A DNA stretch of 64,000 bases, taken from the NCBI GenBank assembly GCA_964019135.1, contig OZ025249.1, positions 37,213,759 through 37,277,758 of the forward strand, given 5' to 3'. Of the stretch, positions 27,148-64,000 are shown piece after piece. The position numbers were made by a program, and so were the translations under genes. The DNA comes from Arenicola marina (taxonomy: Eukaryota > Annelida > Polychaeta > Arenicolidae). Below the pieces are notes generated by a model. It was not told the origin of the DNA, searched no databases, and worked only from the letters and a program-made list of their open reading frames with translations. Each line of letters begins with the position of its first letter. Position 1 is the first letter of the stretch.

Positions 27148-27243
27148 TGGCGCTGGTGTGCATTCCGGTGACGATGGTGCAAAGTGTCTACAAAGGCTGG
27201 CTTTTGGGCGAATCAATGTGCAAGGCGACACCCTTCCTTCAAG
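27148..27243 (+). CDS. Peptide GPCR gene 1, exon encoding TM2 end, ECL1 and TM3 start
   Basis: A 96-bp exon between a good acceptor (pyrimidine tract, TCTGTCTCAG before 27,148) and a consensus donor (CTTCAAG/GTAAGTC at 27,243/27,244). It reads ALVCIPVTMVQ, then SVYKGWLLGES, then MCKATPFLQ. These are the end of TM2, the conserved ECL1 Trp, and the TM3 Cys that pairs with ECL2 in class A receptors. The acceptor leaves two bases of a codon and the donor leaves one base (G), so both junctions are phase 1. The donor phase fits the exon at 34,666 exactly, giving FLQ-G-VSVASSVFT. The preceding exon, with the N-terminus and TM1, was not found. Confidence 0.85.
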
Positions 27244-29595: not shown

Positions 29596-32500
29596 CACCG
29601 TTGCCCACAGCCACGCGGGGCTGATCACACAGTGTGTGTCCCCAGTGCGATTACCCACATCCGCGCGGGGCTGATCACACAGTGTGTGTCCCCAGTGCGA
29701 TTACCCACAGCCGCGCGGGGCTGATCACACCGTGTGTCCCCAGTGCGATTACCCACAGCCGCGCGGGGCTGATCACACAGTGTGTGTCCCCAGTGCGATT
29801 ACCCACAGCCACGCGGGGCTGATCACACAGTGTGTGTCCCCAGTGCGATTACCCACATCCGCGCGGGGCTGATCACACCGTGTGTGTCCCCAGTGCGATT
29901 ACCCACAGCCGCGCGCGGCTGATCACACCGTGTGTCCCCAGTGCGATTACCCACATCCGCGCGGGGCTGATCACACAGTGTGTGTCCCCAGTGCGATTAC
30001 CCACAACCGCGCGGGGCTGATCACACCGTGTGTGTCCCCAGTGGGATTACCCACAGCCGCGCGGGGCTGATCACACCGTGTGTGTCCCCAGTGCGATTAC
30101 CCACAGCCGCGCGAGGCTGATCACACCGTGTGTGTCCCCAGTGCGATTACCCACAACCACGCGGGGCTGATCACACCGCGTGTGTTCCCGGTGCGATTAC
30201 CGACAACCGCGCGGGGCTGATCACACCGTGTGTCCCCAGTGCAATTACCCACAGCCGCGCGGGGCTGATCACACCGTGTGTGTCCCCAGTGCGATTACCC
30301 ACAGCCGCGCGGGACTGATCACACCGTGTGTGTACCCGGTGCGATTACCCCCAGCCGCGCGCGGCTGATCACACCGTGTGTCCCCAGTGCGATTACCCAC
30401 ATCCGCGCGGGGCTGATCACACAGTGTGTGTCCCCAGTGCGATTACCCACAACCGCGCGGGGCTGATCACACCGTGTGTGTCCCCAGTGGGATTACCCAC
30501 AGCCGCGCGGGGCTGATCACACCGTGTGTGTCCCCAGTGCGATTACCCACAGCCGCGCGAGGCTGATCACACCGTGTGTGTCCCCAGTGCGATTACCCAC
30601 AACCGCGCGGGGCTGATCACACCGCGTGTGTTCCCGGTGCGATTACCCACAACCGCGCGGGGCTGATCACACCGTGTGTCCCCAGTGCAATTACCCACAG
30701 CCGCGCGAGGCTGATCACACCGTGTGTGTCCCCAGGGCGATTACCCACAGCCGCGCGGGACTGATCACACCGTGTGTGTACCCGGTGCGATTACCCCCAG
30801 CCGCGCGGGGCTGATCACACCGTGTCTCCCTAGTGCGATTACCCACAGCCGCGCCGGGCTGATCACACCGTGTGTCCCCAGTGCGATTACCCACAGCCGC
30901 GCGGGGCTGATCACAACGTGTGTGTCCCCAGTGCGATTATCCACAGCCGCGCGGGGCTGATCACATAGTGTGTGTCCCCAATGCGATTACCCGCAGCCGC
31001 GCGGGCTGATCACACAGTGTGTGTCCACAATGCGATTACCCACAGCCGCGCGGGCTGATCACACAGTGTGTGTCCCCAGTGGGATTACCCACAGCCACGC
31101 GGGGCTGATCACACCGTGTGTCCCCAGTGCGATTACCCACAGCCACGCGGGGCTGATCACACCGTGTGTCCCCAGGGCGATTACCCACAGCCGCGCGGGG
31201 CTGATCACACCGTGTGTGTCCCCAGTGCGATTACCCACAGCCACGCGGGGCCGATCACACCGTGTGTGTCCCCAGTGCGATTACCCACAGCCACGCGGGG
31301 CTGATCACACCGTGTGTGTCCCCAGTGCGATTACCCACAGCCACGCGGGGCCGATCACACCGTGTGTGTCCCCAGTGCGATTACCCACAGCCACGCGGGG
31401 CTGATCACACCGTGTGTCCCCAGTGCGATTACCCACAGCCACGCGGGGCTGATCACACCGTGTCTCCCCAGTGCGATTACCCACAGCCACGCGGGGCTGA
31501 TCACACCGTGTCTCCCCAGTGCGATTACCCACAGCCACGCGGGGCTGATCACACCGTGTCTCCCCAGTGCGATTACCCACAGCTGCGCGGGGCTGATCAC
31601 ACCGTGTGTGTCCCCAGTGCGATTACCCACAGCCGCGCGGGGCTGATCACACCGTGTGTCCCCAGTGCGATTACCCACAGCCGCGCGGGGCTGATCACAC
31701 CGTGTGTGTCCCCAGTGCGATTACCCACAGCCGCGCGGGGCTGATCACACCGTGTGTCCCCAGTGCGATTACCCACAGCCGCGCGGGGCTGATCGCACCG
31801 TGTGTCCCCAGTGCGATTACCCACAGCCGCGCGGGGCTGATCACACAGTGTGTGTCCCCAGTGCGATTGCCCACAGCCACGCGGGGCTGATCACACCGTG
31901 TGTGTCCCCAGTGCGATTACCCACAGCCACGCGGGGCTGATCACACACTGTGTGTCCCCAGTGCGATTGCCCACAGCCACGCGGGACTGATCACACAGTG
32001 TGTGTCCCCAGTGCGATTACCCACAGCCGCGCGGGGCCGATCACACCGTGTGTGTCCCCGGTGCGATTACCCACAGCCGCGCGGGGCTGATCACACCGTG
32101 TGTCCCTAGTGCGATTACCCACAGCCACGCGGGGCTGATCACACCGTGTGTCCCCAGTGCGATTACCCACAGCCACGCGGGGCTGATCACACCGTGTGTA
32201 CCCGGTGCGATTACCCACAGCCTCGCGGGGCTGATCACACCGTGTGGCCCTAGTGCGATTACCCACAGCCGCGCGGGGCTGATCACACTGTGTGTCCCCA
32301 GTGCGATTGCCCACAGCCACGCGGGGCTGATCACACACTGTGTGTCCCCAGTGCGATTACCCACAGCCACGCGGGGCTGATCACACCGTGTGTCCCCAGT
32401 GCGATTGCCCACAGCCACGCGGGGCTGATCACACAGTGTGTGTCCCCAGTGCGATTACCCACAGCCACGCGGGGCTGATCACACCGTGTGTCCCCAGTGC

Positions 32501-33118
32501 GATTGCCCACAGCCACGCGGGGCTGATCACACACTGTGTGTCCCCAGTGCGATTGCCCACAGCCACGCGGGACTGATCACACAGTGTGTTTTCCCAATGC
32601 GATTACCCACAGCTGCGCGGGCTGATCACACAGTGTGTGTCCCCAGTGCGATTACCCACAGCCGCGCGGGGCCGATCACACCGTGTGTGTCCCCAGTGCG
32701 ATTACCCACAGCCACGCGGGGCTGATCACACCGTGTGTCCCCAGTGCGATTACCCACAGCCGCGCGGGGCTGATCACACCGTGTGTGTCCCCAGTGCGAT
32801 TACCCACAGCCGCGCGGGGCTGATCACACCGTGTGTCCCTAGTGCGATTACCCACAGCCGCCCAGGGCTGATCACACCGTGTGTCCCCAGTGCGATTACC
32901 CACAGCCGCGCGGGGCTGATCACACCGTGTGTCCCTAGTGCGATTACCCACAGCCCCGCGGGGCTGATCACACCGTGTGTCCCCAGTGCGATTACCCACA
33001 GCCACGCGGGGCTGATCACACCGTGTGTCCCTAGTGCGATTACCCACAGCCACGCGGGGCTGATCACACCGTGTGTCCCTAGTGCGATTACCCACAACCG
33101 CCCAGGGCTGATCACGCC
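29596..33118. repeat. 50/48-bp minisatellite array in the receptor gene 1 intron
   Basis: About 71 copies of a 50-bp unit with core GGGGCTGATCACACCGTGTG and GTCCCCAGTGCGATTACCC, alternating with a 48-bp form that lacks one GT. Position variants (CCGCGC or CCACGC, ACAACC or ACAGCC, CCTAG or CCCAG) are ordered. A nine-unit block of 446 bp is repeated (29,832 onward against 30,278 onward; 30,130 onward against 30,576 onward). Each unit holds a TGATCA palindrome and a CpG-rich GCGCGGGG patch. Long frames on both strands are repeat products. Confidence 0.96.
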
Positions 33119-34665: not shown

Positions 34666-35402
34666 GTGTGTCCGTGGCTTCCAGTGTGTTCACTATAGCC
34701 GCCATGAGCGTCGACCGCTTCCTGGCAATAAAGTTCCCCATGCTACTCAGGCGACTGAACGCGGTCTACTACACGAAGATATGCATCGCCATCACGTGGC
34801 TCCTCTCCTTCCTGCTCATGGTCCCCATCGCCATGGTGAAGCGAGTAGAGATCATCGACCTGCTGCCGGACAAGGCCGAACCCATGTACTTCTGCGGGGA
34901 GCAGTGGAACGGCGACGCCGGCAGACACGCGTACGCCATTTGCACCCTCATCGCCATCTACGTCATCCCCGGCGGCGTCATGGTAACGGTTTACGTCATC
35001 ATGGGGCGACAGCTGTGGGTGTCGGCCGAGCAAATAAACATGGAACGCGGGGGGGACACGGCGGCCGATCGCATGCACCGGCGGCAATCCGGCATCACGG
35101 TCGTCGCTGGAAGCTGTAGCCGAGGCACGGGGCGTCGGCGCGTTGCCCGGATGTGGATTATGGTGGCCGTGATCTTCACGGTTTGCTGGCTTCCCTATTA
35201 TATCTTCAGCACGATAACCGACTGGAACTTCCGCGGTACGGCCGCCGTACATCTCGCGCTGACGGGACTTCACTTCTCGTTATGTCTCGGCCACGCCAAC
35301 TGCGCAATCAATCCCATCCTGTACTGCTTCATGGGCCGCACGTTCCGCCGCAAGATGATCAAGCTGGTTCGCCTGCAGTGTCGCTCCGTCAGTCAGCAGC
35401 AG
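34666..35402 (+). CDS. Peptide GPCR gene 1, exon encoding TM3 to TM7 and helix 8
   Basis: A 737-bp exon encoding the core of a class A (rhodopsin-type) receptor. In order: TM3 SVFTIAAMSVDRFLAI, where DRF replaces the usual DRY; TM4 ITWLLSFLLMVPIAM; ECL2 with the TM3-bonding Cys in MYFCGEQW; TM5 CTLIAIYVIPGGVMV; a roughly 55-residue ICL3 with two basic, serine-bearing patches; TM6 VIFTVCWLPYYIF; TM7 NCAINPILYCF; and helix 8 RTFRRKMIKLVRLQC with a possible palmitoylated Cys. The CxxxW pattern of ECL2 resembles the orexin/allatotropin and QRFP/NPFF peptide-receptor groups; ligand unknown. The acceptor is phase 1 and matches 27,243. The donor CAG/GTAAGTG at 35,402/35,403 is phase 0 and matches 37,471. 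Reading through the donor gives V-S-A-stop (35,412-35,414). Confidence 0.88.
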
Positions 35403-35414
35403 GTAAGTGCATGA

Positions 35415-36003
35415 TGAGTCAGAGCCAAGCCCATATGGCGCTCAACACAATTGATAAATCAAGCATGTTATTGTCGTTTTTGTATAATTACTAGATGAAT
35501 TCCCTTTTCTCTGCTGTCATAGACGGTATATTTTTAAATATTGAGCCACATTTTTGTTTTAATTCAAAATATTGCATTATCATTAAATTAAATTTTAACT
35601 CATTAATCATGCCGTCCGTATGTTATACCAATTGAGGAAGCTTCGGCGGTAAAATCATTTCATATTAACTGAGACAGTATTCTGGCTGACTGATGATAAA
35701 TTCTAACCCTGAAGACGTGACAAACGTGATGTTGTTGCAACTGCAACGTACTAATGATTGGCATTGACGAATATCGCAAAACTTACCGTTGCATTTGCTT
35801 CGCTGCGGTGGCCAATCCTCTTGCCACATGGTTGCGCTGAGGAATGACATTTTTGCTGTTATTGACGTGGACTCATTTGGTTTAGCTACAGAAGACGTTG
35901 GACCATTAGTGTCTGGGTTGGGAAAGACAGTGTGGGGGGGGGGGAGGGAGGGGGGGGGGGCAAACAGCATAAGTGACTGAAACTCATACGCCAAATGGTA
36001 GGG
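35415..36003. other. Intron 3' of the TM exon, no gene
   Basis: Start of the 2,068-bp phase-0 intron (35,403-37,470) of receptor gene 1. It has a poly-G patch at about 35,933-35,960. Nothing else is recognised. Confidence 0.5.
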
Positions 36004-36930
36004 AACCATCATCATCATTTATTTCGACCAGGAATCGATACAATACAATATAGCATACAACAGGAAAAAAAACCCCTTTAAAACAGTCAAAACAGTACCT
36101 ATCAAGAAGTTTTTTTTTTCATGTAGGTTGAGTATCCCGCTATTGAATGGGTAAATATCTTCATTAAAGTCTCTTTTGGAGTTGGTTGATTAAATGGGTT
36201 AAGTAATAGCGGATGCAGTTTTCAGCAAATTTGTGCTTGGTTCTGGGTATAATTATATTTTGCTTACGTCTGGTGTTATGCTCATGTCGGTCCAATATAC
36301 GGGGAAAATGGAAAGAGGTAATAAAATAAACAGGGAGATCATCATGCAGCAGCCTGTAATAAAACTTCAAAGCCTGTAACTCATGAATGTCGTCTATTTT
36401 AAGGAGAATCAATCGCTTAAATAAGGGTTCAGTGTGCGCAATATAATGACTCTTTGTTATGATACGGATGGCTCTTTTCTGAATATTATTCAATCGAACA
36501 CTTTGGTGGCCCCAGGCTAATATACAGTAATGCAAGTGAGATAAAATGAGCGAGTTATAAATGGTTAGCAGAATATGTTGAGGAAGAGTATATTTTAGAT
36601 GCTGCATAACTCATACAGTCACCATATATGACGAAAGCAATATGGCCCTTCATTAATGCATGGTAATACATCCGGCAAGCTACACAACGGCTTTAAATAG
36701 AAGCGGTATGCAGCACCCCAAACTTCATGCACGCACGAAAAATATAAGTAATTACTTCTAGACACTTTGCAGTTTTGTCTTTAATGCATTGAACAAGTTC
36801 TTTCCAGAGCAGGCTATTATCCAGTTGAACGCCTAAAACGAATTTGTTTTCGGAGGGGATGTAAAACCAATGTCGTCGAATGTTTGAGTCTGAAACAAAT
36901 GTAATCTAGTCCTGTAGCAAATAATTTTTA
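36004..36930 (-). mobile_element. Decayed non-LTR retrotransposon 3' part, antisense in the receptor intron
   Basis: The minus-strand frame 36,164-36,607 (147 codons) contains YNSLILSHLHYCILAWG, IQKRAIRIITKS, HTEPLFKRLILLKIDDI and LQALKFYYRLLHDDLPVYF. This is the typical segment downstream of the reverse-transcriptase core in Jockey/CR1-like non-LTR elements. Further upstream on the same strand (about 36,745-36,870), NKFVLGVQLDNSLLWKELV belongs to the same protein but is separated by frame breaks. The 3' end at about 36,008 is GAAATAAATGATGATGAT, a microsatellite-like tail usual for such elements. The polymerase core and endonuclease are absent, so the copy is dead and 5'-truncated. Confidence 0.75.
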
Positions 36931-37470
36931 TTTATACAATTTAGTAGCCTATTATAAGTTGTCCTTTCAACTATTATTGAAGTAGTAGAAAGGACTTATA
37001 TAGGGCTATAATTGGTCTAAAATCATTTGCCTTAGATTTTGGAATTAGGTTCGCAATTTTGTTAATTCGTTGGGGAATTAGCCTTGGCACAACGATTGAT
37101 GACATGATACAACGGTTCAGTTAGATGATAAATGATATACTATATTTGATAATAACAGTCATGAAATGTGTGAGAAGTTGCCTTTTAGAAAGGCCAATGG
37201 TGTATCATTGGCGCTATGTATTTGAAATGTTGTACCACCAACCTATAAAACTATGTTTGCCATATACATATGTCGGGTACCTCTCTGATGATATATAGCT
37301 AGGTCCTGTCGTGTGAGGATTGACTTTAGGCATTTGGTAAGCTAATAATATATGGTACTGATACGTTCACTGCATGGTGCTGGTTTTGTCACATATTTAT
37401 TCAAGTTTGTATTAAATTTATTTATTTATTTTTCTCACGCATTCATAAAACGTATCAATTGTCCCCGCAG
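36931..37470. other. Intron end, no gene
   Basis: AT-rich end of the phase-0 intron, closing with ATCAATTGTCCCCGCAG at 37,454-37,470. No further exon is seen. Confidence 0.5.
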
Positions 37471-40400
37471 CCGACGCCGGTAACGTTCCGCTGGACGCTG
37501 AACGACATCTCTGAGCCGCCGAGCATGCGCCCTAGCGTATGTTCCTGGAACACGTGGAACACTGCCAGTCGGTCCGGGAGGTCCTCTTACTCCTACTCCC
37601 AGGCAGACGCCTTTACCCCCATCATGGGGTCGGCCCGGTCCTCCCTCTGCCTCCAGAACTCCTCGGGGCGGCCGTCCTTCGCCCTGGAGGCGCCTACCCC
37701 GCGTGGGTCCGTCTCCACCCAGGGTCGGCCCAGCATCAGCCGCTGGAGCCTGCGGTCGGCTCGCTCCTCCTTCTGCCTGGACGACCGCTCCCCGCGGCCG
37801 TCCATCTGTGTGGAGGGCCGGCCGCTGGCCTACCACTCGCCCGAGTACTGTGAAGGGATCGGGGGCGCCAGCCCCGCGGCCGGGTGTTCCCCCAGGGGGT
37901 CGGTCTCCTCCCAGGGGGCGCGCCTGGCGGTGCGGCCACACCCGCATCACCACCACACCCAGCAGCAGCAGCAGCAGCAGCAACCGCAGCACGTGTCGCA
38001 CCGGCAGTCGGTGAGCGCCCGAGAGCTCCACAACGACCCCCACAACCAGCTCTCCCCACGGTCCTGCCTGGCCTTCTTCCAGGATGGGTCCCCGGCCTTT
38101 CTCACGCCGCACGAAGAGAGGACCTCCCGCGGGGGGTCCCGGCAACCCCGGGGGTCCATCTCCGTGGAGGGGCGTAACGGGGGTGGCGGCGCCAGGAGCT
38201 CGGCCTCCTCCTCCAGAAGCCAGCAGCGGCTGTCCTTCGGCCTGGACGACCGGTCGTCCTGCTCCGGAAGGGCGTCGCTGTCGGCCGAGAGTCGGGCCAC
38301 ACAGAGCACCCAGACGTCCCTGCTGCGCGGGGCCGAGACATCCAACAGTCCCCCCGGGGAGGAGCGCGAGGAGGGTGCGACGGCGGGCGGGTCGGCGGCG
38401 GCTGGGGCAGCGGCGCGGGCCATGGGGCCGGAGGGCCAGGACCAGGACCTTCAACGGGACCTCCAGTACCTGGCCTCCCTCCTCATGTCCTCGGGGAAAC
38501 CATTAAAGGGCAAGCGCAGAGCCTCAGAGACCTACGGCGTGCCGTCCGCCAGCTACACCCTGGCCGACGAATACTACAGCCGGAGTCCAGGCAACCAGCG
38601 GGGCGCTTCGGACACCCGGGACCCCCGGGACAGGGACCCCGGGGACCGGGACAGGGACAGGAACCGGGCCGAGTCAGAAGACCACCGTGCACGGCGCGCC
38701 GGCGGCGGCCAGGGGGGCCCCGCCGTGAGCGGTGACGGTCGGGTGTGGCGCCGAATGTCGCAGCCTTACACGACAGAGTGCGTGCACCCGGCCCGCAAGC
38801 TGCCGGCCACGCCCAGCACCAGCGCCCCGGCCAGGGTGTCCATAGGCGGCAAGGAGCGGGACGGCAAGAAGGCGACCTCCTCCTCCTCGTCCTCTCAGCG
38901 CCAGCGCTCCGTCAAACAGCGCCGGGCCTCCCTGGCCCTGGAGAGGACGTCGGGCAAGCGGTCCTCCCCCAAGCCACGCCGGTCGTCGCTAGCCGCCGCC
39001 TCCGTCCGCAGCGCGTCACCCACCTCCCTGCGGCGGCGGGGATCCGGCGGGGAGGGGCGTCGCTCACCCTCCCAGAGGACCCCCGGGGTGTCCCCTGCGG
39101 GCAGCACCCGGGCCGGTCGGCGGCGTAGCTCGAGAGGAAACAGGAGCAGGAAGAGCCTGAGGACTCGCGATGGCAAGAGTCCAGTGGCCGACTCCGACCA
39201 GCAAGGGTCGACTGGCTCCCAGCGGTCCCCTGGCAGGTCCTCTGACGGCAGGTCGCCGGGCAGGTCACCAGGTAGGTCACCGGCGAGGTCACCGGCGAGG
39301 TCACCGGCTAGGTCACCGGCTAGATCACCAGCTAGATCCCCGGCGAAATCTCCTGCTAGATCTCCGGCGCGGTCCCCAGCGCGGTCCCCATGCAGGTCCC
39401 CAGCGCGATCCCCATGCAGGTCCCCAGTGAGATCCCCTATGAGGTCCCCGCCCAGGTCCCCACTACGGTCCCCCGCCCGGTCCCCCGCCCGGTCCCCCGC
39501 TCGGTCCCCCGCCCGGTCCCCCGCCCTGACCCCGAGCAGTCGGTCCCCGGCCGTCACCCCCGATAGCCGCTCGCCGGACAGTCGCTCGCCAGCCCGGTCC
39601 CCGACCACCGCGCAACAGGTCGGTGGCGCCATCAGGCGGGACTCGTTAACGCTTAGTGAACTGACTTCTCGGTCGTCGCGGCGCGGCAGCCAGAAGTCCC
39701 CGGCCCAGTCCAGGCGAGGCTCCACCACCCTGGAGCCCCACCCCATGGACTTGTCCCCTCACCCCAGGGATCTCTCTCCACACCCCCGTGACCTCTCCCC
39801 ACACCCTAGGGATCTATCCCCACCCAGAGACCTATGGGACTACACCCAGCAACAGCTCCCCAGCTCCCCCCGGGACAGGAGGGACGATGGTCCGCTGGAG
39901 TCCTACAGGGTGGGGTCCGCGGCGAGCAGCAGGAGGAAGCACTCTCTGCCCTGTAACCCCCGAGGCGGGTTCCCAGAAGAAGACGACCAATACCTACAGT
40001 CCCTTGCTGAGTCCCCGGGGACGGGGCAGTCCCACTCCCGGCGCAGGTCCTCCCTCTTCCAATTCCCACCGTCCCAGGTCTTGGAGTCTCCGGAGACACC
40101 GGGGTCCGGACGTCGGACTTCCTTCGCCATGGAGATGATCCCTAGGCGACCCCCTGGCGGCGGAGAGCGGCGAGGCTCGACGGCGTTGCTAGGGGAGACC
40201 CTAGAGACGCTGCTGTCCTCGGGGGAGGAAGCGGCCGTTGGTGGGCCCAGATCACCCAGGCGGTCCCATAACACTCCACGCCGCTCCTCATGTCATAACG
40301 GCCTCTCCTTCTCATCGAGCGCCGGGCCAACCCCACCGGACAGGGCGGAGCACCCCCGCGGCGGCGGGGCGGCGGGCCCCCGCCGGCTGACCCACACCCT

Positions 40401-40869
40401 CTCTGAGTACCCCTACTCCCAGGTGTATCCCTATGACGACGACGACTTCGAGGAGATGGAAGCCTCACCCCGATACACCCACCAGCGAGCGTCCATCTGC
40501 CTGCCGGTGGGGGGTGAGGTCGGGGCGGCCCACGGCGCACCCCGCGCCACCTACCGCCGGGGCTCCATGCACGAGGGCGACTACCCCATCCCCGAGCAGC
40601 AGCGCCACCCTGCGGAGAGCCAGTCACCCTTCTCCCCGCCGCCCCGACCCACCACGTCCCCCGGGGAGGAGAGGTCCAAGTCCTCCTGGAAGCTTCCCTT
40701 CCTGGGTCGTCTGTCGAAGAACAGGCGGTCTAGACGGCGGCCCTCTGGCGGCCAGCGGCCCGAACCAGAACACATCCTGGCCAACATGGATTACGACGAC
40801 GCCCACGATGACGCTTCTAAACTCAACAGAGAGAAACTAAGAGACCTATTTATGTCGAATTTTATTTAA
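37471..40869 (+). CDS. Peptide GPCR gene 1, terminal exon encoding a giant Arg/Ser/Pro-rich C-tail
   Basis: A 3,399-bp GC-rich exon (1,132 residues, stop at 40,867-40,869) joined in phase 0 to helix 8 of the receptor. No transmembrane segment or known enzymatic domain is visible. Residues about 25-310 carry degenerate repeats of R-x-S-(F/I/V)-x-(L/V/E), such as RPSFALE, RSSFCLDD, RPSICVEG and RGSVSTQ. A poly-Gln run lies at about 165-172, an R-S-P-A tetrapeptide array at about 587-688, and an LSPHPRD repeat at about 759-786. At least 13 R-R-x-S/T basophilic kinase motifs are spread through it. The end is acidic then basic: YDDAHDDASKLNREKLRDLF, followed by MSNFI. Polyadenylation signals follow at 41,018 and 41,058. 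Usual class A tails have 20-150 residues. The tail could instead belong to a separate transcript, but the phase match and the absence of another start exon argue for fusion. Confidence 0.75.
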   Translation, partial: PTPVTFRWTLNDISEPPSMRPSVCSWNTWNTASRSGRSSYSYSQADAFTPIMGSARSSLCLQNSSGRPSFALEAPTPRGSVSTQGRPSISRWSLRSARSSFCLDDRSPRPSICVEGRPLAYHSPEYCEGIGGASPAAGCSPRGSVSSQGARLAVRPHPHHHHTQQQQQQQQPQHVSHRQSVSARELHNDPHNQLSPRSCLAFFQDGSPAFLTPHEERTSRGGSRQPRGSISVEGRNGGGGARSSASSSRSQQRLSFGLDDRSSCSGRASLSAESRATQSTQTSLLRGAETSNSPPGEEREEGATAGGSAAAGAAARAMGPEGQDQDLQRDLQYLASLLMSSGKPLKGKRRASETYGVPSASYTLADEYYSRSPGNQRGASDTRDPRDRDPGDRDRDRNRAESEDHRARRAGGGQGGPAVSGDGRVWRRMSQPYTTECVHPARKLPATPSTSAPARVSIGGKERDGKKATSSSSSSQRQRSVKQRRASLALERTSGKRSSPKPRRSSLAAASVRSASPTSLRRRGSGGEGRRSPSQRTPGVSPAGSTRAGRRRSSRGNRSRKSLRTRDGKSPVADSDQQGSTGSQRSPGRSSDGRSPGRSPGRSPARSPARSPARSPARSPARSPAKSPARSPARSPARSPCRSPARSPCRSPVRSPMRSPPRSPLRSPARSPARSPARSPARSPALTPSSRSPAVTPDSRSPDSRSPARSPTTAQQVGGAIRRDSLTLSELTSRSSRRGSQKSPAQSRRGSTTLEPHPMDLSPHPRDLSPHPRDLSPHPRDLSPPRDLWDYTQQQLPSSPRDRRDDGPLESYRVGSAASSRRKHSLPCNPRGGFPEEDDQYLQSLAESPGTGQSHSRRRSSLFQFPPSQVLESPETPGSGRRTSFAMEMIPRRPPGGGERRGSTALLGETLETLLSSGEEAAVGGPRSPRRSHNTPRRSSCHNGLSFSSSAGPTPPDRAEHPRGGGAAGPRRLTHTLSEYPYSQVYPYDDDDFEEMEASPRYTHQRASICLPVGGEVGAAHGAPRATYRRGSMHEGDYPIPEQQRHPAESQSPFSPPPRPTTSPGEERSKSSWKLPFLGRLSKNRRSRRRPSGGQRPEPEHILANMDYDDAHDDASKLNREKLRDLFMSNFI
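39232..39535 (+). repeat. 12-bp coding microsatellite-like array (R-S-P-A)
   Basis: About 25 copies of a 12-bp unit of type AGGTCACCGGCG inside the tail exon, encoding R-S-P-A/G/C/V/M/L. The unit length keeps the frame. Third-base differences are common (CGG/AGG/AGA, CCG/CCA/CCC/CCT), so the array is not freshly expanded. The RSP pattern resembles SR-rich nuclear-speckle proteins such as SRRM2, which is unexpected in a receptor tail. Confidence 0.9.
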
Positions 40870-41017: not shown

Positions 41018-41063
41018 AATAAAAGACATCAAACTTCAATGATTAATCAAGTTGCGCAATAAA
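41018..41063 (+). promoter_or_regulatory. Polyadenylation signals of receptor gene 1
   Basis: AATAAA hexamers at 41,018-41,023 and 41,058-41,063, about 150-190 bp after the stop codon, in an AT-rich 3' flank. These are the expected positions for cleavage of the receptor transcript. Confidence 0.65.
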
Positions 41064-44000
41064 ATAAAATGTACCTGAAATGTTGAGGTCCAATAGCATG
41101 CGTGTATCGGTCTGCTCCATACGACGGACTCTGATCCAGACAGCGCCGGATACAAAATATCCCAGATTCTCAGATGTAATATACTACCGTTGTTCAATTC
41201 CATTGTGTTGCTTTGTTTCTCGCTGAAGTATAACGAATGGCGATCTGGTATGAGGAGTTAATTCCAGTGGAAGTAAAGCTCAGATTCTGGCAACGAGTTC
41301 ACATGAGTGTATGTCTGTACATTGTACCTCAACATATCAGTCTGCCGGAATGGGGTTTGTCGATTGTACATAATATATTGTCTCAGCATGGTCTTAATAA
41401 AATGTTTGCTGAAAGCAACACTTTGTGGAGTGTTGTTTTCATTTCAGTACCAGACCAATTATGTTTCACTGGACATTTCTGTCCGTACTTTTGTTCATTG
41501 TTTCTGAATTCTTCTACAATATGAGGTCAATGTCTATCCTGTCTTACGCATTATATTTTCGTTGCCATTGTTCATTAACATTGTCGAGTAGGTGGTGGAG
41601 TAGGTGGGCCGCTCGCATTGTAAGGCATGTCATCTATGTTTCCATGGATACGTTTCAATGTAAAAAATCGAGTCTCGTTTGTAGCACACACCTGGATTAT
41701 AATATACAGATGGAACTGTTTTTACATTTGCAATAATATCCGAATGTTGAAAAATACCGTGGCCCTCACTTGCAGTACAGCATTCCTCTTACCGCTAAGC
41801 TGCTCTCACCACGTAAGTACAGTTTGCTAATGATAAAGATATCCTGTCTTTCCTCGGAAATAACATGGTTCAGTCGCTTCTTAATTGACTAGATATTCGG
41901 CAGTTGGGTTAAGCGTCTGGAATAAAACAATCAGTTGACCGGATGTTACCGCAGCCAACATTTTATGACGTCATCGGTACGTCTCAACAGCGGAAAAATT
42001 CATTTTAATTTTTCAAATGGAAAAAACTGAATTTTCCCGGGCTTCCAGCCTCCAACCGTCGATGGCCTCTAACGCCGTACAGATCGTCACTCCTCACAAA
42101 CGAAGAATGGTGTTTCTATAACTCGTTATAAGCTGAGGTTATCCCCACACTGTGCTGGATGGCGTATGGAGCCGTCAGCCAGACGTAAGTACCAAGTGAC
42201 TACAGAGCAGGGATGAGAGATTTTATATTGTACCTGAAAACAAATATTGCTACATACAACATACAGATTTGCGCTTACATAGTAGTATACTGAATAATGT
42301 CCTTTATATCTAATCATATTGTATAGAGCTATATTACAAACTAATCCGCGTGAATACCGACCATGTAACGGACGGTACAGGCCGGAAGCCGGATGTGGAC
42401 GTGACATGCCGCCATAAATGGACGCTTTGTTAATGACGTAAGTCATCAAGGGAAGGTGCTAGTTAACATGTGTGACATCTCTGTGGTCAGCTTGGAGCAA
42501 TCGAAGGTCTGCATTGTCAACACATAATACGGGTCAGGGGAAACTACAAGTTTGAGCCATTCTCCGGCCAACGAATATCTACTTCCGGTATACGTCAGAA
42601 GAGAAAGCCTAGCCAGGTAGTGAATGTGACCCGTGCCGTGAACGTGCGCAGACTTGTCAAGGAGTAGGTTTTTCAGTGTGGGTTGTATTTTCGCTCTCCT
42701 GGGTACACGTAGTGAAGTAATTAGCCGCCAGATGGCGGGCTGAAAATAACCAACCATTAAATTGCCTTCAACAATACATTGGCAGCGAATTTCAACCGGC
42801 TGCCCGCTTTGTTTTTTGTAATCTCACCTATCAATCAAACCGAAAACATCAAGGGACTAATCAGAATGTCTTATCAGTACTTTCGGTGGAGGTTTCATCG
42901 CCAGTCGGCTGCCCGCGGCCAATTTCCAGGGTCCCGGCTCTGTCAGTCGAGGGGCTGATTGAGTAGCTGTATAAATGAAAGCAGCTCGTGGCCTGCACCG
43001 ACGTACATGTCGGCGTTGATGGCTCGCGTGTGATGGCGCGAGGGGGGGCGGGGTGCGGAGGTGAGGGGGGGGGGGGAGGCACGGAGGTGAGTGGGGGGGG
43101 GGGGGGGGGTGCGTGGGGGTGCGTGCAATCGGGGTAAATAGTGGTAGTGTGACATTTATGGCTGGTGGTGAAACATACTACATCATAAATAATTATGGAT
43201 AAGGAACTATTATTAATGGTGACGAATATGATTTAAAACGCAGGTTCCATGGAAGGGGTCTCACCGGGCTGGCCTGGCCGGCGGGCCAGTGGATATAGAT
43301 CAGCCAGCTAATTTCAGCGTCCGTCAGCCAGGTAACGCCGACAGCCAGTTTGTTCTGTCCGATTTCCTTTCCTACCTTGCCGTCCTTGGCATTTATATTC
43401 AACCAAATGTGTGTCACCCGGAAGGGATGCATGTAATCTCTGTCCCTTTTTCGTCCCTCAAGTTTCCCCCTTCCACCACTCGTATTCCCTGCAACCCGCT
43501 CCCAGCACGGCCATATGTACTGGCAAACCAGACCACTTTGGCGGCGAACACACCCGTTTGCTGGATAACCAAGGCATAAATATTGGGCCTATTACGGTGC
43601 GCTCCAATCCAGTCACAATCCATCACGCTGACAGGGCCTAATTGCAATCCTAATGAGTTAGTGGAAGCATAAAAAATGCCATTATTATTTCAGCCCTCTC
43701 GTGCAGATAAGTATTTCCTTATAGCGATAAGCGTGCCAGACACGTTTTTATAATTTGCGCACGTACCCCCCCCCCCCTCCCACTCCCCTTCACTTGAGAT
43801 CGATGGGTTTTTTATGCCAAGCAAATCGGTTCTCCTCAGCCAGGTCGTCAAAGAGGTGTTTACTCGTCTCCTACTCGGGGGCCATAGAAACAAGCATTAC
43901 ATCACGTAAGAACAGTTTGGCAACTAATTTGTTCCACTAAGAGCCGCATTTCCTTCAGTGGTCAGGCGGAAAGTTGCATCAGCGCATGCGCGGATGTCAC

Positions 44001-46185: not shown

Positions 46186-46463
46186 GCCGATTCACCTTGA
46201 TCTTGTGATAATTTATCCCCAATGGATCTATTTTCTACCGAAGATACCTTGGGAGTGAGACACATTGAATACGAATTTCTGATCTGAACCTCGGTTGACG
46301 GTTGCGTTAGTGTCGGATGCAGTGGCGTACAGATTCATCTCAACTCTGGCTGCCAGACACTGACAAAAGGATTTCGGGCAGCCACCTTGACATCCGCAGG
46401 TGTTCCAATATCTGTAAATTGCTCGTCTCATTGCAGTGTTGCCTTGACATTCTGACCGTCATC

Positions 46464-47156
46464 ATGCAAGCTACAGGTGTGACAGCCGGCGTGAAGCGGC
46501 TGCAGTCGCCCAGCTTGAAGCGCCGCGCCGTGGCCCCCGATAGCCATGTGGGGATCGGGACCGGGGATGTGACTAGCGGCGCGCCTGTCGGAGGTGACGC
46601 CGGGGTAGCGGTCCCCCAGGGCACCGGTGCCGCCATAATGACCACGTCCATGTCTTCGCTGTCTCAGCCCAGCTCGGGGCCGTCTCTATTCGGCTTACTC
46701 GCCTCGAAGCGACTCGCCCATCAGTTCGCCAACCGGATGTACGCTCGGAGAACCACGCAAAGCGGAAGTCCCTACAGCTTCCGGTTGTCCGGGCACCCCC
46801 GGGAGCAGGAGCCGTCGTACCGTTTGGAGCCGCGACACATCTTCAGTCCGGATCAGGTGGTGGCCGCCATCCGAGAGGTGGTGGATGACCGGATGTCCGA
46901 GTTCCAGTACGCGCCCTCCGAGGCTGCGATGCTGAGTCAGGATATTGCCGAGGAGATTAAAGCCAAGGTGAAGAAGATGGATCTTGACCGCTATAAGCTG
47001 GTCAGTATGGTCAGCGTGGGGGAGAATAGAGGTCAAGGCATCACTATTAGCAGTCGATGTCTGTGGGACGCCGCGCGAGATTCTTCCGCGTCTTACACAT
47101 GGCGGTGTGGCGCCATCTACTGTACGGCCACTGTATTCGGCGTCTACAACGAGTAG
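46464..47156 (+). CDS. Tctex1-domain dynein light chain family protein (DYNLT4/5-like)
   Basis: A 230-residue protein. The N-terminal half (about 1-110) is low-complexity, basic and Ser/Gly/Ala-rich. The C-terminal half is a full Tctex1 fold: PSYRLEPRHIFSPDQVV, helix IREVVDDRMSEFQY, helix AMLSQDIAEEIKAKVKKM, then DRYKLVSMVSVGE, GQGITISSRCLWD and the final strands AIYCTATVFGVYNE. Family members are light chains of cytoplasmic or axonemal dyneins or related adaptors, acting at microtubules and cilia. I prefer Met at 46,464 over Met at 46,317 because the extra 49 residues look unlike the family and include an acceptor-like TCTCATTGCAG ending at 46,435, suggesting a 5' UTR intron. The coding part is one exon, as in vertebrate DYNLT4. 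Its last 17 codons and stop lie in the first unit of a 78-bp tandem repeat. Confidence 0.88.
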   Translation: MQATGVTAGVKRLQSPSLKRRAVAPDSHVGIGTGDVTSGAPVGGDAGVAVPQGTGAAIMTTSMSSLSQPSSGPSLFGLLASKRLAHQFANRMYARRTTQSGSPYSFRLSGHPREQEPSYRLEPRHIFSPDQVVAAIREVVDDRMSEFQYAPSEAAMLSQDIAEEIKAKVKKMDLDRYKLVSMVSVGENRGQGITISSRCLWDAARDSSASYTWRCGAIYCTATVFGVYNE

Positions 47157-60094: not shown

Positions 60095-61435
60095 TCAAAC
60101 GTTGGAGTGAGCCGTCTTGGCGCTCTGACTGGTCTGATGGTAGCGACTGCTGTGGTCGTCTCGGCAGGTGATCACCTCGTAGAGGCACCGCCTGAAGCGG
60201 TCCGACAGGAAGGCGTAGAACAGCGGGTTGAGACCGCTGTTCAAGTAATAGATGACGAAGGAGATGGGCGACAGGAGGCTGGACCAGAAGGACACGTGCG
60301 GGGCGCTCCAGTGCAGCCACATGATGCGCACGTGGTAGGGCAGGACGCACGCCGCGAAGGACATGATGACGACGATCAACAGGCGAATAACACGCCTGCG
60401 CGCCAGCAGAGCGTTCTCCACGGGCCGCTTCTTCTTGTGGCTGGTCTTCAAGAGTTTCTGGAGCCCGCTGTTGTTGGGGTTTGAGTTCGCCGGGTGCGCG
60501 TAGGCCACCGACTTTATAAGCTTCTTATCCTTGCCGAGATTGGGCATCGTCGTCCCGTTGATCCTTTGCACGCGAGAGGAGGGGGTGATGAGGGCCATTG
60601 GAATAGCCGCGCGCTTGTTCCCGCTGCAGCCGTTCTTCGTGGGCCAGTCGTCTTCGTGGTCCGACTCGTAACTGTCGGTCGGTCCCTGATTATCGCCTGT
60701 ATCCAGATCCTCGCTCACGTTGGAATCCATGCGCTTCAAGAGCCGCGTGGCGCGGTCCCGGCGGTCTTCTGACGTCACCAGACACTGCTGCTCCTCGCGC
60801 ATGCTCTTGGTCATGACCTTGGGGACGTGCCGCCTGCCGTCGCCGTCAAGGCCGCTACCACAGCCTCCGCCGTTGTAGGGCTCGTTAACGACGGCCGCGC
60901 ACGGGTTGCCATGGCCATTGGTGCCGTGGGCCAGAGCCCCGATCCGGCTTCCCGAGGAGGAAGAGGAGGACACTCGGGGGGCGGCGGCGCCACCACCCCC
61001 GCCGGAAGGCCCCGTGTGGCTCCGGCACCCACCCCCGGCAGACCCACCAACCCCCTGACTGCTATGCCAGAGGACGACGGATATTCGCGTGTACATGACA
61101 GTCATCAGAAAGAGCGGCAAGAGGTACCACAGGACGAAGTTGTTGGTGGCCTGGGCGCGCATGTTCATGGAGTTAGCCAGGCAGTAGTAGTAGGTGCCAT
61201 TCTCCAGTGTGGGGACGGCAGTGGTGTTGTAGTAGACAAGGAAGGGGATTCCGGCGCAGGCTGAGATGACCCAGACGATGACCACTGTGGCCCGCAGCAG
61301 GCAGATGGACGTCAGCTGTTTACTCCGAATAGGGTGGATGATGGCGAAATACCTCTCGATGGAGATCACCGTCAAAATGTTGATCGATGCCGTGTAACTC
61401 ATGGACTGTACGAAGTAGTAGAGCTTGCACATCAC
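60095..61435 (-). CDS. Peptide GPCR gene 2 (trissin-receptor-like), terminal exon TM3 to C-terminus
   Basis: A 446-residue exon of a class A receptor. In order: VMCKLYYFVQSMSYTASIN (TM3 with its disulphide Cys), ERYFAI (DRY-type motif), TM4 around VVIVWVISACAGIPFLVYY, ECL2 with YYYC, TM5 NNFVLWYLLPLFLMTVMYT, a roughly 220-residue ICL3 rich in Gly/Ser, TM6 VIRLLIVVIMSFAACVLPYH, TM7 YYLNSGLNPLFYAFLSDRF and a short tail ending SAKTAHSNV. The combination of YTASI, FVLWYLLPL, R-R-x-VIRLL and FAACVLPYH is what I know from trissin receptors; identification at family level is moderately sure. The acceptor TTGTTGCAG precedes 61,435 on the minus strand, phase 0, and matches the donor at 63,879. The preceding in-frame residues MCLLLQ are intronic. 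Confidence 0.85.
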   Translation of the reverse strand: MMCKLYYFVQSMSYTASINILTVISIERYFAIIHPIRSKQLTSICLLRATVVIVWVISACAGIPFLVYYNTTAVPTLENGTYYYCLANSMNMRAQATNNFVLWYLLPLFLMTVMYTRISVVLWHSSQGVGGSAGGGCRSHTGPSGGGGGAAAPRVSSSSSSGSRIGALAHGTNGHGNPCAAVVNEPYNGGGCGSGLDGDGRRHVPKVMTKSMREEQQCLVTSEDRRDRATRLLKRMDSNVSEDLDTGDNQGPTDSYESDHEDDWPTKNGCSGNKRAAIPMALITPSSRVQRINGTTMPNLGKDKKLIKSVAYAHPANSNPNNSGLQKLLKTSHKKKRPVENALLARRRVIRLLIVVIMSFAACVLPYHVRIMWLHWSAPHVSFWSSLLSPISFVIYYLNSGLNPLFYAFLSDRFRRCLYEVITCRDDHSSRYHQTSQSAKTAHSNV

Positions 61436-62110
61436 CTGCAACAACAAACACAATGAAACACTATCCTCTTATGAGCTACATACATTTCGTTATCATCCAT
61501 CGAAATAATAAATAATGTTGACTTGCTCTTTGAGTGTGGGAGGGACAACCTAGTACAGTGGCTCCCTAATAACCTGACCTTACTTGGACCAAACCGACAT
61601 TCACCGGTTTGAACTGATCTACCAATGTTACTAAAAAGAAAGTAAGTCATTAGGAGCGATACAGAGATAATTTGCACTTTGCGATTTGTGGAGGGGAGGC
61701 TGCGTGTCGTGCCATAGTAGATAAACTGAGTCCTGGACGGCGAAACGTGTGGTTACTAGCCTTAGGTAAGCACCGTATTCAGCGGATGAACGAAATAATA
61801 CCCACGGGTCAGCTAACAGAAATAAACCACCCATGAATATACAATAAATATGTGTTATATATAATTTATCATCAAGAGATTATTGTCGCCACGTTACCTG
61901 CGTAAAACTTGGGCATGCATAGCAGTCAAGCATTGTACATGTATGTGCACAATTATATCATTTTGTGTATATAGAACGAGAGGGAAATCCGATATGTAGT
62001 CAAACAATTGCTTTGTATCGTCCTTGACCTTGCCCGTGAATAGCAGCACACTCTACCTCAATCGTAGCTTGTGAAATGAATAGGCTTGGATGTCAATAAA
62101 CCAAAAAATA
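61436..62110 (-). other. Intron of receptor gene 2, proximal part
   Basis: Part of the 2,443-bp phase-0 intron (61,436-63,878). No exon or repeat was recognised in this part. Confidence 0.5.
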
Positions 62111-63890: not shown

Positions 63891-64000
63891 CCAGGCTGGA
63901 GAGAGGAAGGTGATGAGGTTGGGCAACACGCAGAAGACTCCGACACATAGATCGGCCACAGCGAGATTAGCCAAGAAGAAGTTGGTGATGGTCCTCATCT
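63879..64000 (-). CDS. Peptide GPCR gene 2 (trissin-receptor-like), TM2 exon (5' end outside window)
   Basis: The exon runs off the window. It reads MRTITNFFLANLAVADLCVG, then VFCVLPNLITFLSP and AWVLGK. These are the start and body of TM2 (N-x-x-x-A-N-L-A-V-A-D pattern) and the ECL1 Trp. The initial Met shown is internal; TM1 and the N-terminus lie beyond 64,000. The donor AAG/GTAAGTC at 63,879/63,878 is phase 0 and joins to VMCKLYYF at 61,435, giving the standard W-V-L-G-x-x-x-C-K spacing. The last codons and the donor are the seed unit of the 40-bp array inside the intron. Confidence 0.85.

Follow-up and report, generated by a model that had tools for sequence, protein, structure and literature searches.

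A single gene of about 43 kb encodes, in all probability, a class A peptide receptor whose core is orexin/CCK/NPFF-like, with a predicted cytoplasmic tail of 1,158 residues after its NPxxY motif. Four coding exons of this gene have been found so far, the first of which lies outside the window (the window being the whole stretch of 64,000 nucleotides that was analysed, C2:37213759-37277758 of an assembly of 867 Mb). Spliced in frame, the four exons give 1,539 codons, and translation of the join has its sole stop at the end. We infer that in the mRNA the receptor core is spliced to the tail exon.

Gene model and receptor class

The gene and the main features of its tail are laid out as follows.

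L009 7561-7948 (2,439 to 2,052 bases upstream of the window): exon A, TM1-TM2
27148-27243, plus strand: exon B, end of TM2, first extracellular loop and start of TM3; phase 1 at both ends, donor GTAAGT
34666-35402, plus strand: exon C, TM3 to helix 8, with DRF and NPILY; phase-0 donor CAG/GTAAGT
35403-37470, plus strand: intron between core and tail; read-through stops after 4 codons (stop at 35415)
37471-40869, plus strand: tail exon, 1,132 codons and a TAA stop; rich in S, R and P; net charge +76
37489-40569, plus strand: region over which the R-x-[S/T]-hydrophobic sites lie; first RWTL (residue 7), last RGSM (residue 1030)
39250-39537, plus strand: array of 24 RSPx units, with strong synonymous bias at the R, S and P codons
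41018-41068, plus strand: polyadenylation signals AATAAA at 41018, 41058 and 41063

The protein start was taken as the first Met of the open frame of exon A (MLGPSG...) and is a predicted start. The three introns are 29,199, 7,422 and 2,068 bases long, with phases 1, 1 and 0; all of them have GTAAGT as their donor, and the seams GSDLL-VALVCIPV and PFLQ-GVSVASSV fit a class A receptor. Splice sites were scored with weight matrices, for all GT and AG sites on the plus strand of the window. By this measure the donor of exon B, an exon of 96 bases, is second among 3,888 GT sites. Exons A and B were lacking from the model of an initial annotation of the window, and they complete the receptor; a receptor without TM1-TM2 is ruled out by exon A found in L009 and by exon B at 27148-27243. 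The same annotation had described an exon for TM3-TM7 that ends at a consensus phase-0 donor after helix 8, followed by an exon of 1,132 codons with a phase-0 acceptor, one stop and polyadenylation signals soon after. Both descriptions are borne out: the donor CAG/GTAAGT ranks first of the 3,888 GT sites, and the tail exon ends in TAA with AATAAA from 41018 onwards and a further copy at 41396.

Exon C matches the Pfam family 7tm_1 with an E-value of 6.6e-34 (118 bits against a curated cut-off of 30.5), and the spliced protein contains the motifs GNSLVLVV in TM1, VDRFLAI, which is a variant of the DRY type, and NPILY. The core aligns with the orexin-2 receptor structure from TM1 to helix 8. Against solved structures, it gives E-values of 8e-45 for orexin-2 and 1e-44 for CCK-B, and the bit scores for orexin-2 (156.5), CCK-B (156.2) and NPFF2 (151.4) are nearly equal. 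A peptide ligand is therefore likely for the encoded receptor, and the subfamily is not singled out. These three receptors are the best structure matches of the core, and the matched chains have no tail of such size.

The window has other features as well. A second class A receptor exon, which may be trissin-receptor-like, is located at 60101-61465 on the minus strand (Pfam 7tm_1, E 2.3e-35); it has a long third intracellular loop and is accompanied by a TM2-like piece ending near 63983. At 46455-47153 on the plus strand, an exon encodes a domain of the Tctex-1 family, of the dynein light chain type (PF03645, E 1.1e-25). A minisatellite of about 50 bases lies in the intron that separates exon B from exon C, in 63.5 copies (30000-33115, scanned from 30000). 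In the intron before the tail exon, an open frame on the minus strand at 36164-36610 looks by eye like part of the reverse transcriptase of a non-LTR retrotransposon.

Composition, selection and motifs of the tail

After NPILY the tail comprises 26 + 1,132 = 1,158 residues, in line with the roughly 1,150 given by the initial annotation. Among the 1,132 residues of the tail exon there are 197 S, 160 R and 127 P; Ser and Thr together number 250, and there is also a polyQ run, together with short repeats. An effect of composition as the source of the open frame is ruled out by 1,000 Markov-1 simulations of its composition, in which the longest run was 652 codons and the mean 285. The tail is probably disordered: AlphaFold2, run on the single sequence, gives a mean pLDDT of 32.7, which fits disorder and counts as weak evidence. 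No Pfam family was found in the tail exon at E up to 1, and the lack of an RNA-recognition motif at that threshold sets it apart from the SR proteins. In a genome search, residues 1-300 and 831-1132 of the tail returned the tail itself only. The whole tail matches elsewhere in the genome at its array region, in a search that scored 41 of 31,602 first-look candidates; in another search of the genome with the tail, the other 41 matches fall at query positions 462-544, around the CAG run.

Its codons mark the tail exon as coding sequence under selection. In the RSP array, the R, S and P codons show 36 synonymous and 3 nonsynonymous differences from the commonest codon, and two of the three nonsynonymous ones sit in the last unit (36/1 if that unit is left out). 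The fourth residue of the unit is free, with 9 synonymous and 9 nonsynonymous differences. For comparison, 11 further stretches with this period, drawn from seven of the genome's arrays, sum to 45 synonymous and 46 nonsynonymous differences when counted at the three most conserved codon columns of each, edges included; the contrast of 36/3 with 45/46 rules out a chance reading of an unselected satellite as the origin of the RSP array. The individual counts (synonymous/nonsynonymous) are 11/15 for L047, 6/3 for L048, 0/0 for L049, 7/1 for L050, 6/3 for L051, 0/0 for L052, 9/2 for L053, 0/2 for L054, 6/14 for L055, 0/6 for L056 and 0/0 for L057; some of these stretches overlap, they may or may not be coding, and four from one array on C10 hardly vary. 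L047 and L055 vary enough for a comparison and have no synonymous lean like that of the window array. L050 and L053 do lean in the same way, and may be coding. Four controls counted at hand-chosen columns, of 6 arrays, gave 13/16 for L047, 4/5 for L051, 0/4 for L056 and 8/0 for L050.

The initial annotation had also pointed to many phosphorylation motifs in the tail, and here counts against 2,000 composition shuffles of the tail exon agree with it. The pattern R.S[LIVMF] occurs 22 times against 3.3 expected, RRx[S/T] 18 times against 4.9 and [S/T]P 65 times against 27.9, and for none of the three did any of the 2,000 shuffles reach the observed count. No enrichment was found for plain Rxx[S/T] (34 against 35.3 expected), 14-3-3 mode 1 (2 against 2.8) or PxxP (10 against 14.1). 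The same is true of complete arrestin codes, with 15 short and 16 long ones against 13.5 and 13.3 expected from composition, and the suggestion that the tail acts as an arrestin platform finds no specific support in these numbers.

Sites of the form R-x-S-[LIVMFT] number 24, of which 13 are in the first quarter of the tail. They are encoded by five R and three S codons and share preferences at later positions, in columns picked after inspection: 20 of the 24 have a small residue at +4, 15 a hydrophobic one or Ala at +5, and 12 have E, D or Q at +6. With such varied codons and common preferences, the sites are therefore not as recent duplication would give them. Stretches fitting [QE]xLxxL[LFAM]xS, a pattern likewise picked after inspection, are found 4 times against 0.01 expected, and two of the four lie in or beside the only helices drawn by AlphaFold2.

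These properties bear on the idea that the tail is real and mainly of low complexity, having grown by repeat expansion and doing little beyond supplying bulk and charge. Such a spacer would be in keeping with the biased composition, the polyQ run and the short repeats, with the many arrays of similar period in the genome, and with a search that found no conserved relative of the tail. It would not account for the R-x-S-hydrophobic sites outside the array (22 against 2.9 expected), with their mixture of R and S codons and shared column preferences, nor for the synonymous bias within the array, and it appears fairly unlikely to us.

The junction between receptor and tail

Among the 76 matches to exon C listed in the same genome, its own locus included, the six closest others (L014 to L019, 36 to 43% identity) were compared. 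In four of the six, a phase-0 donor is present at about the same place after helix 8. Counted from the N of NPILY, the window gene has its phase-0 GT at codon 31; those of L018 (GTAGGT), L014, L016 and L015 (GTAAGT) fall at codons 32 to 36. The helix-8 donor of L019 is ambiguous, and L017, a decayed-looking copy, is without one. In the next match, the more distant L020, one open frame continues past helix 8 with no intron, and the helix-8 intron is therefore not universal. Coding-like stretches run to a stop after the helix-8 exon in L019 (L045 1992-2534) and L018 (L044 from 1853), with ambiguous acceptors; L014 has no convincing tail exon in the 8 kb examined there, and no tail of similar sequence was found in the genome for the relatives. 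L015, L016 and L017 are three neighbouring copies of a related receptor at C2:41.19-41.48 Mb. Elsewhere, at L059 (C18:21475800-21480800), there is a receptor exon, presumably muscarinic-like, with a third intracellular loop that extends in a single open frame over several hundred residues of low complexity. The tail gene is therefore not alone in having long disordered cytoplasmic stretches.

The receptor very probably runs on past the stop at 35415, because its donor at 35403 is the top-scoring one of the window strand and four of the six closest relatives have a similar phase-0 donor. The acceptor at 37471 (CCCGCAG/CCG, phase 0) is only fair, ranking 173rd of the 3,326 AG sites on the plus strand of the window. 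It is outscored by acceptors at 36127 (phase 0, within the intron), 37603 and 37657; the last two are in frame and would trim the long tail by 44 or 62 residues, and the first would yield a tail of 20 residues, as read by eye. A codon model trained on eight receptor exons, with the tail excluded, opens a coding segment at 37459, 12 bases ahead of the tail exon, and the same model returns exon C as 34668-35402. Among its 25 best segments on the plus strand of the window, no other is found in the intron 35403-37470. Those upstream are limited to exon C, a short segment at 14.7 kb and minisatellite stretches between 29.9 and 33.1 kb; exon B, with its 96 bases, does not appear among the 25, and short exons could escape. 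The first 18 codons of the tail exon, before its first Met, have a GC content of 0.89 at the third position and 0.50 and 0.61 at the others, and they include one copy of the tail motif, RWTL. We consider it highly probable that 35402 is joined to 37471.

It is also conceivable that the gene has two forms, in which a short receptor is made by read-through (SQQQVSA, ending at 35414) or by splicing to 36127, and the long tail belongs to a minor isoform. This is compatible with the single receptor gene preferred here, the two not being mutually exclusive, and the acceptor at 36127 has a score of 9.5, the best listed between 35403 and 37800, with AATAAA further on at 36320, 36325 and 36358. However, 36127 is located at a T run beside the antisense retrotransposon-like fragment (a label given by eye), and the long frame appears to be under selection; this reading with two forms is in our view unlikely. 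Least convincing, and very improbable, is that there are two genes, with the tail exon being a separate transcript (e.g. from the ATG at 37525) or the last exon of another gene and the receptor ending elsewhere: the ATG at tail codon 19 does have the A at -3 to which the Kozak rule gives weight, the relatives share no tail sequence, and the RS-type composition is as in nuclear proteins, but the coding signal starts from the acceptor, 18 codons ahead of this Met, with the same third-position bias and a copy of the tail motif, the intron has no plus-strand coding-like segment among the 25 best (short exons could escape), and the best-scoring donor of the receptor would be left without a partner.

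The proposal of the initial annotation, one receptor with a giant disordered tail, has good support in the sequence from the complete in-frame gene model, the helix-8 intron common to relatives, the codon-level selection, the sharp start of coding at the acceptor and, as weak evidence, the low pLDDT, with a junction that is deduced from sequence.

A possible role for the tail, and its parallels

In class A receptors, the tail is where kinases and arrestins set the duration of receptor signalling. For the locus as a whole, we lean slightly towards a single receptor gene with a tail for multisite phosphorylation. In the active receptor, many tail sites would be phosphorylated by basophilic second-messenger kinases, PKA- or PKC-like, as well as by proline-directed ones, and the strongly basic chain (+76) would shift from positive towards negative. 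The phosphorylated tail could then be a multivalent docking strip for phospho-binding partners, and the number of filled sites would give a graded setting of desensitisation and local signalling. This mechanism, with its putative kinases, partners and graded read-out, might equally well be right or wrong. A further step, which we regard as doubtful, would be that the receptor carries its own kinase-substrate scaffold, in which some two dozen R-x-S-hydrophobic-x-hydrophobic-acid sites and the selected RSP array take the tail from about +76 towards strongly negative on phosphorylation; a single class A receptor would in this way tally kinase activity and build a multivalent membrane cluster without a separate scaffold protein. 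RSP-type repeats, probably phosphorylated, are familiar from SR/RS-domain proteins; the tail differs from these in having no RRM or other Pfam domain and in being joined, in the gene model, to a membrane receptor.

Melanopsin (OPN4), also class A and with a long tail rich in Ser and Thr, has been studied as a case in which bulk charge counts for more than the choice of strict sites: its shut-off is driven by bulk phosphorylation rather than by strict sites (PMC7112210, PMC8648817). Mouse melanopsin has 38 Ser/Thr in its tail against 250 in the tail exon here, and it is an opsin, whereas the window gene encodes a peptide receptor.

In a study of 49 Drosophila neuropeptide receptors (PMC9624432), the tails of rickets, moody and CG32547 are 300+ to 500+ residues long. 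Like the window gene, rickets and moody are class A and have long tails with several phosphorylation codes; in the available text of that study an RSP array is not mentioned. CG32547, which is 1,008 residues in all (PMC3524798) and has since been named GulpR (PMC12711087), is the nearest description found: it too is class A, is placed close to peptide receptors and has a C-terminal tail of atypical length (PMC3524798, PMC9624432, PMC12711087). It is an orphan, and, in a comparison by description only, its tail is one of those given as 300+ to 500+ residues, where the tail here has 1,158. In Drosophila neuropeptide receptors the conserved arrestin codes usually number 1 to 2 and reach 7 at most (PMC9624432); the absolute number in the tail is high next to this, where the Drosophila figure refers to conserved codes and is thus a different count. 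As another example, the A2A receptor tail of 122 residues has been called unusually long (PMC3789979), and the tail here is more than nine times that length.

The initial annotation knew of no receptor with this architecture. At about 1,150 residues this still applies, as a search of the open-licence literature turned up none in class A with a tail of this kind, but long class A tails as such are known (PMC9624432). What is new is the size, the selected RSP array and the array of R-x-S motifs. If the reading of a single receptor gene with a multisite-phosphorylation tail is true, the gene would offer an extreme case in nature in which to ask whether receptor shut-off depends on individual phosphosites or on how many there are and on bulk charge.
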